From contig NC_014961.1 of assembly GCF_000186365.1 (NCBI RefSeq), positions 1,240,001-1,304,000 of the forward strand: 64,000 nucleotides of DNA. Reading direction: 5' to 3'. The notes under the pieces are model-generated. The model made no database searches and was not told the DNA's origin. It was given only the letters and a program-made list of their open reading frames with translations. The stretch comes from Desulfurococcus mucosus DSM 2162. Its GTDB lineage: Archaea > Thermoproteota > Thermoprotei_A > Sulfolobales > Desulfurococcaceae. The position numbers and the translations under genes were made by a program. Below are positions 328 to 14,115 of the stretch, one piece after another (positions within the stretch are counted from its first letter, which is position 1; every line of letters starts with the position of its first letter).

Positions 328-408
328 GTGAGTGACGAAGAGGTATTAATCCTTGAGGAAACCGGAGTTAATCCCGGATCGTTAAAGGTATCGTGGGTGG
401 GATCGTGA
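328..408 (+). CDS. 26-residue leader ORF of the BREX-like operon
   Basis: The GTG at 328 is the first start after the predicted transcription start and has the best ribosome binding site of the operon, GAGGGG six bases upstream. It encodes an acidic 26-aa peptide beginning MSDEEVLILEETG and stops at TGA 406-408. That stop overlaps the next start (GTG 405) in a GTGA arrangement, so the downstream gene is probably translationally coupled to it. It may be a real microprotein, a leader peptide that only sets translation of the next gene, or the N-terminus of the 149-aa protein separated from it by a frameshift. The amino acid sequence matches no family that I know. Confidence 0.45.
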   Translation: MSDEEVLILEETGVNPGSLKVSWVGS

Positions 409-854
409 AGTCTACCACGATGTATCGTGTGGGGAAAATCACACCAGTAGTCAAGATCCGCGGCAACGAGTTAAAGCTGTTTCTACATGAGGAGATGACG
501 AACCCAATCCTAGCTTATTCCAGTAGGAGTGTTGAGGTGGTTGGGAAAGCATTATCCAAGAGGTTCCTGGCAAGAAATAACCCCGATGGCTCCAGGGACA
601 TCCTCCTGCCCATAACAGCGTTTCCAGCGGTATCCGTGTGGCTGGCCGCGTCATACGGGGCGCGCCCATCCGAGGAGCTCCTCGAGAAACTGCTCGACGC
701 CACGCCTAAGGCTGTTGCAGACGTAATCTGGAAGAAAATCGAGTCAAGCCCCGGCGTCGTAGAGGACTGGACGCAGCCACTCATGGACGCGGCGACGCTC
801 CGCGAAACCGCTAAAACCATACGCAGGTACCTCAAAATACACGGGGTGACGTAG
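405..854 (+). CDS. Unknown 149-aa protein, second ORF of the BREX-like operon
   Basis: The reading frame is open from GTG 393, but GTG 405 is the likelier start because it overlaps the preceding stop (GTGA) and has GGTGGGAT upstream. The protein is soluble and predicted mostly helical, with a basic N-terminus (KSTTMYRVGKITPVVKIRG) and a helical C-terminal half. It ends two bases before the methyltransferase start, so it is part of the same operon and probably works with it. I recognise no domain. By position it could take the place of small BREX accessory proteins such as BrxA or BrxB, or act as a regulator. I see no sequence similarity to either, and no helix-turn-helix is obvious. Confidence 0.75.
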   Translation: MKSTTMYRVGKITPVVKIRGNELKLFLHEEMTNPILAYSSRSVEVVGKALSKRFLARNNPDGSRDILLPITAFPAVSVWLAASYGARPSEELLEKLLDATPKAVADVIWKKIESSPGVVEDWTQPLMDAATLRETAKTIRRYLKIHGVT

Positions 855-856
855 GC

Positions 857-3670
857 GTGAAGCTCATCGAGAAAGAGTTCCCGCTGAAAGAAGTCAACCT
901 CATCTCGGAGTACGAGATGAGCTTTTTAAAGATGATACCCAGGGATTTAAAGGAGGCTCTACGCAAGCTTTATAATCTACCAGAGCCGAAAGGACGGAAT
1001 CTGCCAAAAATCAGCAACATCATGTATTATCCCGCTAGGATACCGCCTTCTGCGACGAGGGCCGTCACCCTTGCCTCCGCCCTAAACTACGATCCAGCCG
1101 TGTCTAGGGAGGTGTTCTTGAGGGCCGTGGGGCTGGATAACGCTAGGGAGCTCGCGAAGAAGAGCGGGGCCCTGGTCACGCTCTACATGGCCGACCCGGA
1201 CAGGGGCCTCGTTAAACGGCTCCTCGGCAAGGATCCCCGGGAGATAACGGTCGTCGACCCGATGGCCGGCGGCGGCTCGATACCTCTGGAGAGCCTGAGG
1301 CTCGGCTTCAGGACCATTGCGGGCGACCTCAACCCGGTCTCGTACCTCATCTTGAGGGCCACGATAGAGTTCCCCGCTAAGTACGGGCGGAAGCTCTTGA
1401 AGCTCGTGGAAGAAGAGTTCAGGATGCTGAAGGAGTACACTGAGAGGGAGCTCGGGAGATTCTACGGGGAAGAGGATAAAGGTTACATATACTTCATTAC
1501 GGCAGAGCACGACTGCGGAGGCACTATCCCACTAGCCATGCACCCAGTTCTAAGCAGGAGCAGGCACATCTACGTGAAGCCCGTCTTCAACAAGGAGAGT
1601 AAGTCCGTGAGCTTTGAGATAACAACGGAGATCACCTCCTTCTCCCCCGCTCTCTGCCCGTACTGTGGGAAACCCCTAGGCGAGGAGTACATAAGGATGA
1701 AGTGGGTGAAGAAGCACACGGAGATACTAAGCGAACTGCTCAACGGAAACGAGGAGAGGGCCGAGGAGGCAAGAAAAACCTACGTGATAGCAGCCGTGCA
1801 GAAGGCCAGGGAGCGCTATTCTCCGCCAAGCGAGCTGGATGCCGCGAGGCTGGTCGACGCCGCTAAGGAGCTGGCTAGGTGCGCCCGCGAGGAGATGAGC
1901 AGGGGAGACAGCATCAGGAGGTATCTGCCGGTGTCCGAGATACCGCAGGATAACGAGGTGTTCAGCGAGCTGAGGAAATACGGCATAAAGTACTGGTACC
2001 AGCTGTTCACGCCGCGCGAGCTGTTGGCCCTATACAAGCTCACGAAGTACGTTAGGGAGCGGGCCCGGCAACTGCACGAACAGTACGGCGAGCTCGGAGA
2101 CGCGGTGGCCCTATACATGGCTATTGCGTTAGCTAAGATCATGAACTTTAACAACATTTTATCTCAATGGGATCCTGGTGACGGGACTGTAAGAGACCTC
2201 GTCGGTGGGCAATACGCTCTAACCCGTGGAGTAGAACTTGGAAGCGACTATGCCGAGGGGAGCATACCGTTCAAAGCGATTCCATGGGCTTTAGAGGTAG
2301 AGGAGGGCGAGGCCGAGGAGGAGGCTGAAGAGGTTGAATCAACGAGGGGCGGCATACTGCCCGTGCTCAGGTTGCTGTGCAATAGGCTCGAGGGCCTCTG
2401 GAAGGACGGGCTGGACGCCGTCTACCTGTGGGATGCTAGGGAAATCGATAAGCATCTGCCCGAGAAGAGCGTCGACGTGGTCGATGTCGACCCACCCTAC
2501 TACGACCAGCACGACTACTCCGGCATCTCAGAGTTCTTCTGGGTCATTATCCAGAAAGCCGTGTGGCCCGTACTTAGGGGGCTGTTCCCAGGGGACAGGG
2601 TGAAGCTCGAGGGCTGGGGGCCCGAGTCTCCTGAGTTGCCGAGGCACGCCGAGATTAGGGGTGCACCGCCGAAGAAAGTCGGCGAGGTAAGCGAGTTTGG
2701 AGGGAGCTTCAAGAGATTCCTTGAAGCGGCCTCGGGGATCCTCAAAGACGATGGGCTCCTCGTCGTGTGGTATGCGTATGGAAAGCTCCACGGGTGGGAG
2801 GAGCTCTTCTACAGGCTCTATGAAGCCGGATACGGTGTCACAAAGACATGGCAGGTCTGGACGCAGTCGGGGCAGAGGAGGATTGCCCTCCATACTTCCG
2901 CGTTCTTCACTAGTATAGTTATCGTTGCTAGACCGAGGGTTAAGAGGACGCAGATAGTAAGCTATGAAGACAACATGTTCAAAGACGATGTGAGGAGGAG
3001 CGTTGAGTCGGTGGCCAGCTTTGTACTCGGCACCTATGGTTTAGACGCCTTGAGGGAGGCTACCGTGGTATCAATTGCCGACGGCTTCGCGACCGCGACC
3101 AGGTATTCATATATCGGTGCCTCAGGGTGGCTTGGAGTATACCAGAACCTTGCGAGCATTGCTCTAAGGGAAGCAGTCTACGCGTTCCTTGAGTACCTAG
3201 CTAAGAGGGAGGGTATAAGCAGACTCGATGTGCGTGGATTAGACAGTGTTTCAAGGCTGTACACGTTCCTGCTGGTGGCGTCCGAGAAAGACAGGAACTC
3301 ACCGGCCCTAGTGGTTTCAAGCGACTTCGTGAACAGGGTTAGTCAAGCAGTTAGGGTCGATGAAGCCATTGTAAAAGAATTGAAGATAGGTGGAAGCGGG
3401 AAGGGAACCGTTAAGCTGAGAAGCCCGACGGAGGTGGCGAAGAAATACCCGGAGACCGTTATCGGTGAAAGCATCACATTAGTAGAACAAGTGAGGAAGA
3501 CTATGAGGGAGCTTGGTGTGAGAGCAGCCGAGGATATAGTGTTGAAGAGCGATAGAAGCACCGTGGATCTGGCGAGACTGCTTGCAGCATACTCGTGGGA
3601 TAAGCTTAATATACCGCCGGACGAGAAGGATGTGTTACTCAAGGTTCTATCCACAGGCACGGGTGAGTGA
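857..3670 (+). CDS. DUF1156/COG1743-type DNA methyltransferase (PglXI-like)
   Basis: This 937-aa protein is a predicted DNA amino-methyltransferase. Around residues 55-75 the segment MYYPARIPPSATRAVTLASA resembles the DUF1156 signature (usually WWARRPLAASRAV-like). SAM-binding motif I, DPMAGGGSIPLE, lies near residues 133-144, and the catalytic motif DPPYYDQHDYSG near residue 544. This order with a long insert is typical of COG1743 enzymes. A zinc-ribbon-like insert near residue 220-275 keeps only one CPYCG half; the first half reads HDCGGTIPL and lacks a CxxC pair. Start GTG 857 has GGGGTGA upstream. DUF1156 methylases replace PglX in type 3 BREX systems, and here the neighbour genes encode DUF499 and PglZ-like proteins, supporting an antiviral modification role. 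Target sequence and activity are unknown. Confidence 0.85.
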   Translation: MKLIEKEFPLKEVNLISEYEMSFLKMIPRDLKEALRKLYNLPEPKGRNLPKISNIMYYPARIPPSATRAVTLASALNYDPAVSREVFLRAVGLDNARELAKKSGALVTLYMADPDRGLVKRLLGKDPREITVVDPMAGGGSIPLESLRLGFRTIAGDLNPVSYLILRATIEFPAKYGRKLLKLVEEEFRMLKEYTERELGRFYGEEDKGYIYFITAEHDCGGTIPLAMHPVLSRSRHIYVKPVFNKESKSVSFEITTEITSFSPALCPYCGKPLGEEYIRMKWVKKHTEILSELLNGNEERAEEARKTYVIAAVQKARERYSPPSELDAARLVDAAKELARCAREEMSRGDSIRRYLPVSEIPQDNEVFSELRKYGIKYWYQLFTPRELLALYKLTKYVRERARQLHEQYGELGDAVALYMAIALAKIMNFNNILSQWDPGDGTVRDLVGGQYALTRGVELGSDYAEGSIPFKAIPWALEVEEGEAEEEAEEVESTRGGILPVLRLLCNRLEGLWKDGLDAVYLWDAREIDKHLPEKSVDVVDVDPPYYDQHDYSGISEFFWVIIQKAVWPVLRGLFPGDRVKLEGWGPESPELPRHAEIRGAPPKKVGEVSEFGGSFKRFLEAASGILKDDGLLVVWYAYGKLHGWEELFYRLYEAGYGVTKTWQVWTQSGQRRIALHTSAFFTSIVIVARPRVKRTQIVSYEDNMFKDDVRRSVESVASFVLGTYGLDALREATVVSIADGFATATRYSYIGASGWLGVYQNLASIALREAVYAFLEYLAKREGISRLDVRGLDSVSRLYTFLLVASEKDRNSPALVVSSDFVNRVSQAVRVDEAIVKELKIGGSGKGTVKLRSPTEVAKKYPETVIGESITLVEQVRKTMRELGVRAAEDIVLKSDRSTVDLARLLAAYSWDKLNIPPDEKDVLLKVLSTGTGE

Positions 3671-3676
3671 CGCACC

Positions 3677-6427
3677 ATGGCTTCACGTCTCAAAGAAGTA
3701 CTGGATAAACCATATTTGGAGGAAATAATCCGTCTAAGCCCGGATGACCTAGCGCCATCCTTTGGAACAGTGATTAGAGCGTTAGTAGATCAGCATGCAT
3801 CGGGGGCATGGCCGTACTATAGGCCAGAGGTATTCTTCGATAACACGGAGCTCACAGAGGGCTTCGCAGAAATCATCAAGAATATCGTCAACACCCTCAG
3901 CTCCAGAGGCGTTGACGGGATATTTCTTGATCTCGACATGGGCTCCGGTAAAACACACTTGTTAACACTCCTGTTACACTTGTTCGCGTCCTGCCGGTTT
4001 AACCCCAATGTCTGTACGCGATACATTAGGGACTATGGGAAGAAGACCGGCTTCAACCTCGAGCTGGCTGAGAATACCATTGTGATAGCAGCCGACATGA
4101 GGACCCCTGAAAGCATATATGAGTATCTTAAGCTGACAGCCGGGATCCTCAGGTGGGCTGGCGCGATAGACGCTGCCAACCACATTGAGGAATCCCTGAG
4201 CAACAGGAGGCTACCCGACCCTGTGAAACTCGCCCAAAGCATTCCCCTGAAGAACCACATCCTTATACTCATAGACGAGCTACATTACTCAGCTATTCTA
4301 GGCACAAGGTCCTCTAGAGAGATCGTTAAGGAGTTCCTGAAGTTTGTGTCATCGCTTATGAGTTACAGGAAGGAGATTCAAAAAGAGAAGAGGGGAGGAG
4401 TGGCACTAGTAGTGGCCTCGGCGAGAAGAGACTTTGTAAGATGGAGCGAGATAAAGACCGTGTTTGAGGACAAAGACTTTGCCGGGGTTCTCGAGGCCTT
4501 TATTGATCAGCTGGAACGGGTAAAGGGGTTGGCTGCATCAAGGTGGATGAGTAATGCTGAGGCTCAAAGAATCATTGCTAGGAGGCTCAAGTTGGGAAAG
4601 CCGTTTAACGAGGTCTTCCACGAATCCTTCAACGGGTTTATCGAGAGAGTTATTAAAGCTGACAGCGACTTTCCAGACGCCCACCACATGAGGTCGCTGA
4701 TTAAGGCGTTTGCCATCTACGCGTTGAACGCTCTTGAATCAAATGCACCCATAGTCTCGCCCGCACACTTCAGCGATACAGTGGTAACCGTATTGCTCGG
4801 AGACTCAGACATAGCTAGACGCTATAGAGCCGTATACAGTGAGATACTCAACAAATTGGAGAGCATGGAAAATACAGGGAAGAAAGGTCTCCTACGGTTG
4901 GCTGTAAACATAGTATTCACAGGCACAATCGTTGGTGATGCTAAGAAAATAATTGAAATGGTTAGAGTTGCTAAAACCAGAGAGGTCTCGGACGAGGCGA
5001 TTCCGCTTGTTAGGGAATTAGAATTGAAGGAAATACTCACCAAGGTGCATGGATACAGGGACTCAGATGTCGTGGATGTTGTTAAGGATCTTGAAAGCAT
5101 ACATCCAAACATCCATAGCGTTAAACTCGTAGGCGGTGCTCACGCATACTTTGTTGCACCATCGCGAAACGTGAAAGCAATATACAGGGATATTATCGCG
5201 AGGAATCGGTACAACTACTTGAATAACGAGAAGAATGTAGTGGAGAAGCTAAGCGAATATGTTAACGAGCTGGCTCTTAATGAAGCTCTTGTGCAACAAT
5301 CCGTCGTAGGCAACCTGAACGATCTTGACAAAACACCGCATTCCAGGGATAAGCTCTATATCTACATATACTTCAATGCACCCCTACTCTCTCAATCAAA
5401 ATGGGATGAGACAAAAGGTGATGGAACATTCAGCAGAATGTTAAATGAAGCTAGGGAATACCTGAGGCGCAAGGCGATGCACAACGTGGTCTTCGTTTTA
5501 CCGAGGATTAAGGAAAGCCTTATAAGGGATATGGCTGACTATCTTGCCGTAGAGGATGCGACGAGCCATATAATTAACACCTACCTTGTAAAAGTAGAGA
5601 AAGACGAGTCAACCCGTAGAAGCGAAGAAGACGAGCTCTTCCGCGAACTCCTAAAGATAGAGTTCAAGGATATTGTGGCTGAAGTAGTGGCGAAAATAAA
5701 CGATGCATTAGCATCGTTCTCGAGGGCCGTAGCATCCCTACCGGATAAAGCGTTGTACTACATGCCGAGCGGGGAGGTCAGAGAAGCCGATGTGAAGTTG
5801 ACCCCGGTGAAGAGAGAGGTATCAGGGCTCGAAGACGTGCACAGGGCGATAGACATCATGAGAAGTAGAAGAATGGATATCATAGAGAATACAGCGAAGG
5901 AGTTATATCAGTGGATTTCACAGGGGCCTATATCATTCATCACTTCGGAATCCGATGCATTGCGAGTAATATACAGCACTGTTACCGAGGATTTAAAATC
6001 TTTAAACAAGTACCGGCTCTGCAAGGATCACACGGTGCTACAGAAGGGCGAGAAATCATACTATATACCGCCCTCCTTTATCGAGAAAGCCTTCCAAAGC
6101 GTTGGGGAGGAGGTGAGAAAGAGCTTCGAGAAGGATTATACGGTTCGCACAGTAATCGACGGTACCTGCATGGAAATAGTGTTAGAGCCGAAGGGAGCTA
6201 TAGCAGTAGTAAACCAACCAGTCAGGGCTAGTGTACTGCCTCCCAGACCATCCACTGCTACCAGTATCATGGAGATAATAGACTCTGTTGCTGAGAACGG
6301 TGGCGGAGTTGTAACAATAGAGATCGAGGTAACCAAGGATAACTACGAGCTCGTCAAGGAGACATTGTCGCAAATCATGAAGTATGTTAAAATCAAGGAT
6401 TACAGCAGGAAGGGAGCCGGTAGTTGA
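3677..6427 (+). CDS. DUF499 ATPase (PglY/BrxC-like)
   Basis: A 916-aa P-loop ATPase starting six bases after the methyltransferase, with GGTGAG ahead of ATG 3677. Walker A is DMGSGKTHLL (about residues 87-96), preceded by the conserved segment containing FFDNTELTEGFAEI. Walker B is HILILIDELHYSA (about residues 190-200). The combination with a COG1743 methylase and this motif style point to the DUF499 (COG1483) family, which includes PglY/BrxC. BREX BrxC proteins are commonly about 1200 aa, so this copy is short. It shares TTGA (stop/start overlap) with the downstream PglZ-like gene. The frame looks richer in A/T at third positions than the flanking core genes, consistent with acquired DNA; that impression is by eye. 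Confidence 0.85.
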   Translation: MASRLKEVLDKPYLEEIIRLSPDDLAPSFGTVIRALVDQHASGAWPYYRPEVFFDNTELTEGFAEIIKNIVNTLSSRGVDGIFLDLDMGSGKTHLLTLLLHLFASCRFNPNVCTRYIRDYGKKTGFNLELAENTIVIAADMRTPESIYEYLKLTAGILRWAGAIDAANHIEESLSNRRLPDPVKLAQSIPLKNHILILIDELHYSAILGTRSSREIVKEFLKFVSSLMSYRKEIQKEKRGGVALVVASARRDFVRWSEIKTVFEDKDFAGVLEAFIDQLERVKGLAASRWMSNAEAQRIIARRLKLGKPFNEVFHESFNGFIERVIKADSDFPDAHHMRSLIKAFAIYALNALESNAPIVSPAHFSDTVVTVLLGDSDIARRYRAVYSEILNKLESMENTGKKGLLRLAVNIVFTGTIVGDAKKIIEMVRVAKTREVSDEAIPLVRELELKEILTKVHGYRDSDVVDVVKDLESIHPNIHSVKLVGGAHAYFVAPSRNVKAIYRDIIARNRYNYLNNEKNVVEKLSEYVNELALNEALVQQSVVGNLNDLDKTPHSRDKLYIYIYFNAPLLSQSKWDETKGDGTFSRMLNEAREYLRRKAMHNVVFVLPRIKESLIRDMADYLAVEDATSHIINTYLVKVEKDESTRRSEEDELFRELLKIEFKDIVAEVVAKINDALASFSRAVASLPDKALYYMPSGEVREADVKLTPVKREVSGLEDVHRAIDIMRSRRMDIIENTAKELYQWISQGPISFITSESDALRVIYSTVTEDLKSLNKYRLCKDHTVLQKGEKSYYIPPSFIEKAFQSVGEEVRKSFEKDYTVRTVIDGTCMEIVLEPKGAIAVVNQPVRASVLPPRPSTATSIMEIIDSVAENGGGVVTIEIEVTKDNYELVKETLSQIMKYVKIKDYSRKGAGS

Positions 6428-7110
6428 GGATTCAGTCGCTCATCATCGATGTTTTTGAAACCGCTAGAAACAGGAAGATAACGTACAGGGATTTTTTCAA
6501 GGCATTCATGTCCATCTACGGTGTGCCCGCACGGTTTGAAACTGATGTGTCTTTTATTACTAATCGGCTCCTAAGCCTCGCACACGCCGTGGACACAGCT
6601 GTCGAGAGCCTTGACTTAATGGTTAACCGTGTAAGGGAGCTGGAGGGAAAAGGCTACGTACTACTTGTTGTCGACTGCATAGGGCTCCCCGAGCTATACG
6701 AGATATATACATATGTCGCTGAAGCTGTTAACCCACTATCCATCACAGTAGAGGCCTACATAAACGGCAAGGCAATGACATACAGGTTCAAATACGCTTT
6801 CGGAGAGGGTACAATGCTTGAGGTCGCCAAGAGGCTCGGCGCATCCATACATAGATATATTGATAAAACAGTGCACAGAGACCTAGGGGACCCCGTGGAG
6901 CCGGACACCCTAGTAGAGCTCGCTAAATCAAGGTTAAAGCCTCTTGCGGACGACATAGCGAGGGATGCTCTAAATAGTCGAGCCGCCATCATAGTGGCAG
7001 ACCACGGCTACGATGTCGGTTGCAGAAACGGTAAGTGCTATCTAGAGCATGGAGAAGCAATTAAGCTAGCCAAGATATCGCCGCTCATAATCATGAAATC
7101 GAAAAAGTGA
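6424..7110 (+). CDS. Minimal PglZ-like phosphatase-fold protein
   Basis: A 228-aa protein whose TTG start overlaps the preceding TGA. A hydrophobic strand ending in an Asp (YVLLVVDCIGLPELYE, near residues 77-92) is followed about 110 residues later by AAIIVADHGYDVG and then KCYLEHG. This strand-Asp, DHG and His layout is that of the alkaline-phosphatase-superfamily metal site found in PglZ (PF08665), where the signatures are close to DGLR and SDHG. PglZ proteins are usually several times longer, so only the catalytic core is present, with a helical N-terminal 75 residues. The gene context (DUF1156 methylase, DUF499 ATPase) strengthens the call. Two extra Cys flank the second metal motif (VGCRNGKCYLEHG). 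An alternative is another alkaline-phosphatase-like fold protein. Confidence 0.72.
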   Translation: MRIQSLIIDVFETARNRKITYRDFFKAFMSIYGVPARFETDVSFITNRLLSLAHAVDTAVESLDLMVNRVRELEGKGYVLLVVDCIGLPELYEIYTYVAEAVNPLSITVEAYINGKAMTYRFKYAFGEGTMLEVAKRLGASIHRYIDKTVHRDLGDPVEPDTLVELAKSRLKPLADDIARDALNSRAAIIVADHGYDVGCRNGKCYLEHGEAIKLAKISPLIIMKSKK

Positions 7111-7768: not shown

Positions 7769-9173
7769 ATGATTGAGGGGGCTGGGGTGGGCTTGGACAG
7801 GGTTAGGGCTCTGACATCCAGGAGGGTTGAGAGAAGCCTCGAGGTAGTCAGGCTGGACAGGGAGCTGTTTCCTCCTGCTATGGCCCTCAAGTACTATCCG
7901 GTGGCGGTTGCCAGGGCCAGGGGGTCCAGGGTCTGGGATCTCGACGGCAATGAGTACATTGACTTCCTGTCGAGTGCGGCAGTCTGCAATGTTGGCCACT
8001 GCCACCCTGAGGTGGTTAAGGCTGTCAAGGAGCAGGTGGACGAGTTCCTCAACTATACTATTGCATACTTCTACGCGGTCAAGCCGGTTGAGCTCGCTAA
8101 AATGCTCGTCGAGATAACGCCCGGGGGGATATAAGAAGAAGGTGGTCTTCGGCTTCAGCGGCTCCGACGCCGTTGACTCATCGATAAAGGCTGCGAGGGC
8201 CTACACGGGGAGGAAGGGGGTGGTCTCCTTCCTGTACTCCTATCACGGAATGACGTATGGGGCCCTCTCCGCCACGGGAATAGTCGGGCCGAGCGTTAAG
8301 GAGGCTGTCCACCCGATGAGTGAAGTGGTGTTCGCCGAGTACCCGGATCCCTATAGGAACAAGTGGGGTGTGGACGGCTACGAGAGGCCCGTGGAGCTGG
8401 CAAACCTGGCGCTGGAGGAGGTTGAGGAAAGGGTGAAGGAGGCTGGCGCGGCGGCGATAATATTTGAACCCATACAGGGAGACGCAGGAGTCGTAGTGCC
8501 GCCGGCCGAGTTCATCAAGGGGCTCAGGGAGATCGCGGACAAGCATGGTGCAGTCCTAGTCGACGAGGAGGTTCAGGCCGGCATGGGTAGGACTGGCAAG
8601 TGGTGGGCGGTGGAGCACTTCGGGGTGGTCCCCGACCTCCTCGTATCGGCTAAGGCGCTTGGTGGCGGAATGCCTATATCTGCCGTGGTGGGCAGGGCAG
8701 AGATACTGGACTCTGTCCCTCCACCGCTCTTCGCGTTTACTCACACAGGCCACTCAGTGTGCGCGGCTGCCGCCATAGCCACGATAAACGCGATCAAGAG
8801 GGAGGGCCTGGTGGAGAGGGCGGCCATACTCGGCGACTACGCGTTGAAGAGGCTCACGGAACTCAAGGAGAAATACCATGTGATCGGCGATGTGAGGGGA
8901 AGAGGCCTAATGATAGGAGTCGACATAGTGAAAAACCCCGGGACAAGGGAGCCCGACAAGAAGACAGCGCTCAAGATATGCTGGAGGGCATGGGAGAAGG
9001 GCCTAATACTCATAACATTCGGAAAACACAGCAACGTCCTCAGGATAGCACCCCCGCTCAACATACCCCGGGAAGACCTCGACAGGGGCATAGACATAAT
9101 CGAGGAATCCATAAAGGACGTGCTCGAGGGAAGGGTGCCCGATGAAGTACTGGAGTTCCTGAGGCCATGGTGA
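7769..9173 (+). pseudogene. Class III aminotransferase / amino-acid racemase, split by a frameshift
   Basis: Two adjacent frames together encode one PLP enzyme of the acetylornithine/4-aminobutyrate aminotransferase family. The first (7769-8134) has the N-terminal domain, including VWDLDGNEYIDFLSSAAVCNVGHCHP. The second (from about 8129 to 9173) continues with [17 protein letters not shown] and carries [19 protein letters not shown] and [10 protein letters not shown], whose Lys binds PLP. Removing one G from the six-G run 8123-8128 joins them as [18 protein letters not shown], giving about 467 aa, the normal family size. It is therefore either a recent inactivating mutation, a sequencing error in a homopolymer, or programmed slippage. 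Archaeal members include broad-specificity amino-acid racemases and ornithine/GABA aminotransferases. The D-aminopeptidase and dipeptidase nearby make a racemase role attractive, but the substrate cannot be read from sequence. Confidence 0.85.
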
Positions 9174-14026: not shown

Positions 14027-14115
14027 CTTTCAATCCTCTTTGCATTGAGGTTGAATTAACCACTATAGCTGGTACAGGTGTAAACCTATTTCTTTCAATC
14101 CTCTTTATATTGAGG
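14027..14115 (-). CRISPR. Two-repeat CRISPR remnant
   Basis: Two 24-bp repeats, 14092-14115 and 14027-14050, are identical at 22 of 24 positions. Read on the minus strand they begin CCTCAAT, contain AAAGAGG, and end in ATTGAAAG, the usual 3' end of crenarchaeal CRISPR repeats; CCTC and GAGG can pair as the repeat stem. They enclose a 41-bp unique spacer (14051-14091), a normal archaeal length. The copy at 14027 has the two changed bases, as expected for the trailer-end repeat. Only about 40 bases separate the other end from the TrmI gene, leaving little room for a leader. No cas genes are present. It is an orphan remnant or a solo miniature array. Confidence 0.7.

Follow-up and report, generated by a model that had tools for sequence, protein, structure and literature searches.

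The protein encoded at positions 6424–7110 of the window (the whole 64,000-nucleotide stretch of Desulfurococcus mucosus DSM 2162 analyzed here) closes a small operon, probably a defence operon of the DNA-methylation type, and takes the slot usually held by a helicase or nuclease. The operon, at 393–7110, is probably a compact BREX-related, DUF499-centred system of restriction-modification-like character, in which a standalone, insert-less PglZ (here mini-PglZ) would serve as the nuclease effector. How BREX-type systems arrest phage has been an unsettled question, and PglZ has only recently been shown to be a metal-dependent nuclease. The crenarchaeal order of the host is known for hyperthermophiles.

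The operon and its surroundings

The four genes, in operon order, are as follows.

393–854, forward strand: first gene of the operon, 153 aa; its position suggests a small accessory subunit
857–3670, forward strand: DUF1156-type adenine DNA methyltransferase, 937 aa, with DPPY at 545 (PADLOC, NCBIfam)
3677–6427, forward strand: DUF499/HmaC-type AAA+ ATPase, 916 aa, with GSGKT and LILIDE motifs (PADLOC, family links)
6424–7110, forward strand: mini-PglZ, 228 aa, TTG start (ORF list, alignment, AlphaFold2 model, Foldseek)

The TTG of mini-PglZ overlaps the TGA of the upstream gene (TTGA, 6424–6427), and this start is supported because a 229-aa homologue, 33 per cent identical in alignment, begins at the equivalent MRI in EvPrim.Bin23 (Desulfurococcales; G116). 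The 228-aa frame of the preliminary description is thus borne out as a real gene, with a homologue of near-equal length in a second genome of the Desulfurococcales. That homologue, the closest mini-PglZ, lies convergent with its DUF499 ATPase (L042/L126 1094–5532); the methyltransferase there is only 334 aa and is followed by an apparently unrelated gene, an arrangement that may reflect either decay or misassembly.

The window methyltransferase matches PADLOC HmaB (E 7e-35) and NCBIfam DUF1156_antiphage (E 1e-26, under its cut-off). The ATPase is labelled DUF499 because it matches PADLOC HmaC (E 2.5e-6) and falls in a family with other DUF499 ATPases; one ATPase of this family matches NF042962 weakly, and neither of the two window proteins scores above NCBIfam cut-offs. 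For the 153-aa gene no recognizable relative was found, in Pfam and PADLOC among others, and its comparison with a ∼160-aa gene of related operons gave an hhalign P of 0.005 and no hmmsearch support. Homology of that ∼160-aa gene to DUF7680 (P 0.0013) is suggestive only. The window operon contains no helicase-nuclease HmaA and no large helicase gene, and the genome, a single contig of 1,314,639 bp, contains no BrxL match and only a weak 30 per cent match to the helicase of BREX-related (BR) systems, in a different, 569-aa frame.

The operon sits in a ∼14.7 kb segment missing from both congeners, in which the same flanking genes are separated by ∼253 bp (G070) and ∼77 bp (G071). Each end of the segment carries a one-spacer CRISPR unit of two 24-nt repeats, 65 bp apart and in the same orientation:

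Window 14027–14115: one-spacer CRISPR unit
G000:C1:1239499–1239587 (L002 14500–14588): one-spacer CRISPR unit

These repeats match those of the large CRISPR arrays of the same genome exactly or almost exactly; in this genome the repeat has 161 matches, and it has none in either congener. The segment was possibly inserted through, or recombined at, CRISPR repeats. The segment also contains an aminotransferase gene (window 7769–9173) that is split into two frames of 121 and 343 aa; its paralogues elsewhere in the genome have longer open frames of 442 and 455 aa.

Fold and predicted two-metal site

Taken alone, the window protein has zero sequence matches in Pfam, NCBIfam, PADLOC and the PDB, and no relative was returned by single-sequence searches of genome contigs and viral contigs or by an alignment-based scan of viral contigs. 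The family was instead found via neighbouring genes and profiles. In two genomes DUF1156 relatives (L043 in G225, L045 in G059) have beside them ∼275-aa proteins containing DHGYD; a four-row profile run across the phylum found members in G552, G277, G342 and G453 and a fragment in G429 (E 4.5e-8 or better); and a genome scan added one member from Bathyarchaeota and one from Methanodesulfokora. Profile matches weaker than the eight solid genomes were taken as general superfamily members and left out. A second contig of G277 carries an 81-aa C-terminal mini-PglZ fragment standing alone (L091/L125; L125 3550–3795), which is probably a decayed copy. The Pfam PglZ model, PF08665, matches none of the eight members even at E 1, which reflects a curated-model threshold rather than a structural feature; over 197 genomes of the class it matched other proteins only, mostly as partial 60–80-residue hits in frames of 330–550 residues, and it matched nothing in the host genome.

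A PglZ-like fold is supported by structure prediction. AlphaFold2, given six alignment rows, modelled the window protein at pLDDT 85.3 and pTM 0.86 (best of five kept; the others 64 to 80) and a 267-aa relative at pLDDT 80.9 and pTM 0.83 (other models 58–68). The window model is a single domain of 228 aa, free of extra domains, in which a ∼75-residue helical lead precedes a ∼150-residue two-metal core; the short helical lead noted earlier corresponds to four helices ahead of the first core strand. In Foldseek searches of the PDB with this model PorX fills the first ten places, nine of these matches having E<0.001 and a probability of 0.99–1.00, and with either model PorX alone reaches E<0.001, while MCR, alkaline phosphatase and ENPP (ENPP6) stand at ∼0.01 or worse. 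The TM-scores are modest, 0.42–0.50 by query length. The alkaline-phosphatase-like PglZ fold anticipated in the preliminary description is supported by both models, with PorX closest; the effector of PorX is itself a PglZ domain (PMC12205998). The family profile also aligns, over DxxxH..DHG, with the core of a BREX-4 PglZ (hhalign P 1.9e-5, 78%; hmmsearch E 6.6e-6 against a small set of proteins).

The predicted site is made up of the following codons.

6673–6675, forward strand: D84, predicted Zn2 ligand (PorX-Fj D237); invariant in eight homologues, from the PorX ligand list
6763–6765, forward strand: N114, invariant and close to the nucleophile, from the alignment
6778–6780, forward strand: T119, predicted nucleophile and Zn2 ligand (PorX-Fj T271, E. 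fergusonii PglZ T538)
6862–6876, forward strand: D147xxxH151, predicted Zn1 ligands (PorX-Fj D360, H364), from the alignment and PorX ligand list
7000–7005, forward strand: D193-H194, predicted Zn2 ligands (PorX-Fj D414, H415), from the alignment and PorX ligand list
7048–7050, forward strand: H209, predicted Zn1 ligand (PorX-Fj H499, E. fergusonii PglZ H741)

In PorX-Fj, Zn1 is held by D360, H364 and H499 and Zn2 by D237, the nucleophile T271, D414 and H415 (PMC11320123), and all seven ligand letters recur in the mini-PglZ family in unchanged order. The matching residues of E. fergusonii PglZ are D503, T538, D661, H662 and H741, of which T538 and H741 were tested experimentally (PMC12205998). 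Only M1, D84, N114, T119, D147, H151, D193, H194, G195, D197 and H209 are invariant in the eight-row family alignment. Because the ligand columns are invariant in eight members whose rows are 16–33 per cent identical to the query, the motifs at D84, D193-H194 and H209 go beyond chance. The preliminary description had picked out these three as VVDC (its Asp placed near residue 83), ADHG and LEHG; it overlooked T119 and D147xxxH151, which make the seven-ligand site complete, so that the protein is not reduced to three motifs. In the window model each ligand lies at or just past the end of a core strand or at the start of a helix: D84 directly follows strand E79-83, T119 begins a helix, D147 and H151 lie within the helix after strand E141-143, and D193-H194 and H209 follow strands E187-192 and E204-208, respectively. 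Metal binding by this site is predicted. A pseudogene reading of mini-PglZ was rejected in view of the conservation of every ligand.

What separates the family from its relatives is the spacing of the ligands. From D to T the family has 31–35 residues (34 in PorX), from T to D 28–47 (28 in the window protein, 89 in PorX), within DxxxH 4 (also 4 in PorX), from H to D 37–42 (50 in PorX) and from DH to the last H 15–17 (15 in the window protein, 84 in PorX). The last distance is 79 residues in E. fergusonii PglZ (H662–H741) and 74 in the BREX-4 PglZ of L120, in which the T–D gap is short. Because the T–D insert already varies among known PglZ, the loss specific to the mini-PglZ family is that of the DH-to-H insert. 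The proposal that this protein defines the minimal PglZ unit stands in a softened form: it is reasonable to regard it as close to minimal, because no smaller complete member turned up in this analysis and the family is without both large PorX inserts.

Proposed function and alternative readings

In the proposed mechanism host DNA would carry the mark of the DUF1156 methyltransferase, scanning of DNA and assembly of the complex would fall to the DUF499 AAA+ ATPase, and mini-PglZ would cut phosphodiester bonds of unmarked invading DNA at its two-metal site, with Zn1 bound by D147, H151 and H209, Zn2 by D84, T119, D193 and H194, and T119 as the nucleophile. Nuclease activity, self-marking by methylation, ATPase-guided activation, the succession of these steps and a role in defence are all inferred. 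Loss of the DH-to-H insert could change the range of substrates. Most related systems in the literature have a helicase or BrxL partner, and none was found in the window genome.

The closeness to PorX also admits a different role, which we consider unlikely, in which mini-PglZ would break down an oligonucleotide signal, cyclic or linear, and thereby regulate the complex instead of cutting invader DNA. Solved structures resembling mini-PglZ are those of PorX only, whose PglZ domain cleaves oligonucleotides, and E. fergusonii PglZ cleaves cA6 besides DNA, but the PglZ of Type-1 BREX does cut dsDNA (PMC12205998). An open site without inserts might favour small substrates; the operon, however, encodes no recognized signal-making cyclase or sensor, and mini-PglZ occupies the slot of helicase-nucleases in DUF499 systems.

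A slightly smaller chance is given to a member of the alkaline phosphatase superfamily from outside the PglZ branch, such as a small NPP-like phosphodiesterase recruited independently. The best PDB sequence matches of the family profile are indeed ENPP4 and ENPP7 (E 0.04–0.06), and a Pfam PglZ match is lacking; yet the fold searches with two models rank PorX first and find PorX alone at E<0.001, the profile matches BREX-4 PglZ, and the operon is BREX-related. Least probable is that mini-PglZ is mainly a structural subunit that assembles the methyltransferase–ATPase complex, with catalysis secondary: methylation by E. fergusonii BREX needs no nuclease activity, even though PglZ belongs to the core of that complex (PMC12205998), but in the mini-PglZ family the catalytic ligands are all invariant while the remainder has diverged to ∼20 per cent identity, which points to selection on catalysis.

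Relation to known systems

Type-3 BR systems combine a standalone PglZ with DUF499 and DUF1156 proteins (569 taxa, 134 archaea; PMC12839542, Rakesh and Krishnan 2026), so the earlier statement that long extra domains are a feature of known PglZ proteins was too strong. The window operon resembles these systems: its PglZ domain is unfused, keeps all metal ligands and is encoded next to an ATPase of the DUF499 type and a methyltransferase of the DUF1156 type. In the published Type-3 BR systems a BrxHII-type helicase is present as well, 82 per cent have an iSTAND protein, and PglZ is described as retaining a three-stranded cap insert (PMC12839542). Here, by contrast, there is no linked helicase, BrxHII-type or other, the window operon yielded no identified iSTAND, and the cap appears absent judging by the DH-to-H spacing, in a comparison that takes the published PglZ by description only. 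The mini-PglZ group may, as far as the published account of the set goes, lie within those already counted by its authors (PMC12839542). A standalone PglZ with DUF499 and DUF1156 is thus already known, and what would set the present group apart is the want of a linked helicase and, by spacing, of a cap.

The PglZ proteins of BREX types 1 and 4 share the catalytic D, T, DH and H, with DxxxH common to the BREX-4 copy, and likewise adjoin a methyltransferase, an ATPase and sometimes BrxL. They differ in their size of ∼800–885 aa, their N-terminal domains and their 74–79 residues from DH to the last H (E. fergusonii, L118:2249–4903; Methanosphaera, L120:5600–8011), and their partner ATPase is BrxC (DUF6079), whereas that of the window is DUF499. 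The multidomain PglZ with BrxC of BREX types 1–4, joined by BrxL in types 1 and 4, is not what the window system contains. PorX (PDB 7PV7, 7PVA, 8THP and others), the best fold match and alike in its seven ordered ligands, is a type IX secretion response regulator with receiver and helical domains and has inserts of 89 and 84 residues. Hma, or Type-1 BR, systems share the DUF1156 methyltransferase and the DUF499 ATPase and often include a small DUF7680 gene, but their effector is not PglZ; it is a helicase of the SNF2 type that bears a C-terminal domain (NOV_C in L057), and their methyltransferases form a clade separate from that of the window.

Elsewhere the order DUF1156–DUF499–mini-PglZ–∼160-aa gene is conserved (L043, L086, L087, L088/L123), and the operon in L122 has a 248-aa gene. 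Among loci with adequate flanks, including L043, L045, L087 and L088, no linked large helicase ORF was found. L045 (1606–10727) is a hybrid in which BrxL (PF13337 E 3e-111; TIGR02688 above cut-off) stands between DUF499 and mini-PglZ, with DUF1156 and a 172-aa gene as the other members, and so places a BREX protein within a DUF499-centred system. In the METHYLTRANSFERASE tree all ten PglZ-linked methyltransferases fall in one group with 100 per cent SH-aLRT, which holds four others (three without PglZ seen, one whose contig is too short to judge) and is separate from the other 13 rows, including those of helicase- and nuclease-linked systems. The PglZ label changes at least three times on this tree, which therefore does not demonstrate a single origin of the linkage. 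Three loci (L044, L046, L048) have DUF1156-type methyltransferases of the same clade with other neighbours and no DUF499-family ORF within the stretch examined.

The DUF1156–DUF499 core is also found in this class with an SNF2 helicase bearing a NOV_C domain (L057) and, in L049–L053 (e.g. L053 4873–14237), with a divergent PDDEXK gene together with a gene for an SF1-like helicase. Three partner types on one core, mini-PglZ being the third, support effector exchange, as already proposed for BR systems (PMC12839542). DUF7680 lies between DUF499 and DUF1156 in the plasmid helicase-type systems L115, L116, L117 and L127 (Pfam E 1e-35 to 1e-44) and looks like a further core subunit there; the published three-component description of such systems does not name it. 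The sampled plasmid DUF499 loci contain no annotated PglZ.

Current annotation libraries miss the mini-PglZ family. With rather less than even confidence, we regard it as a distinct, so far unmodelled family of insert-less nucleases and as the only effector linked to a BREX-related system of four genes, free of a helicase, in the Thermoproteota. This would show the smallest PglZ catalytic unit and imply that within this superfamily restriction may do without a dedicated helicase. At 228 residues the single-domain PglZ, which shares its operon with two large partners, is a small and probably robust protein for testing DNA cutting by PglZ alone, and it is suited to asking what role the PglZ inserts have and whether restriction works without a helicase.
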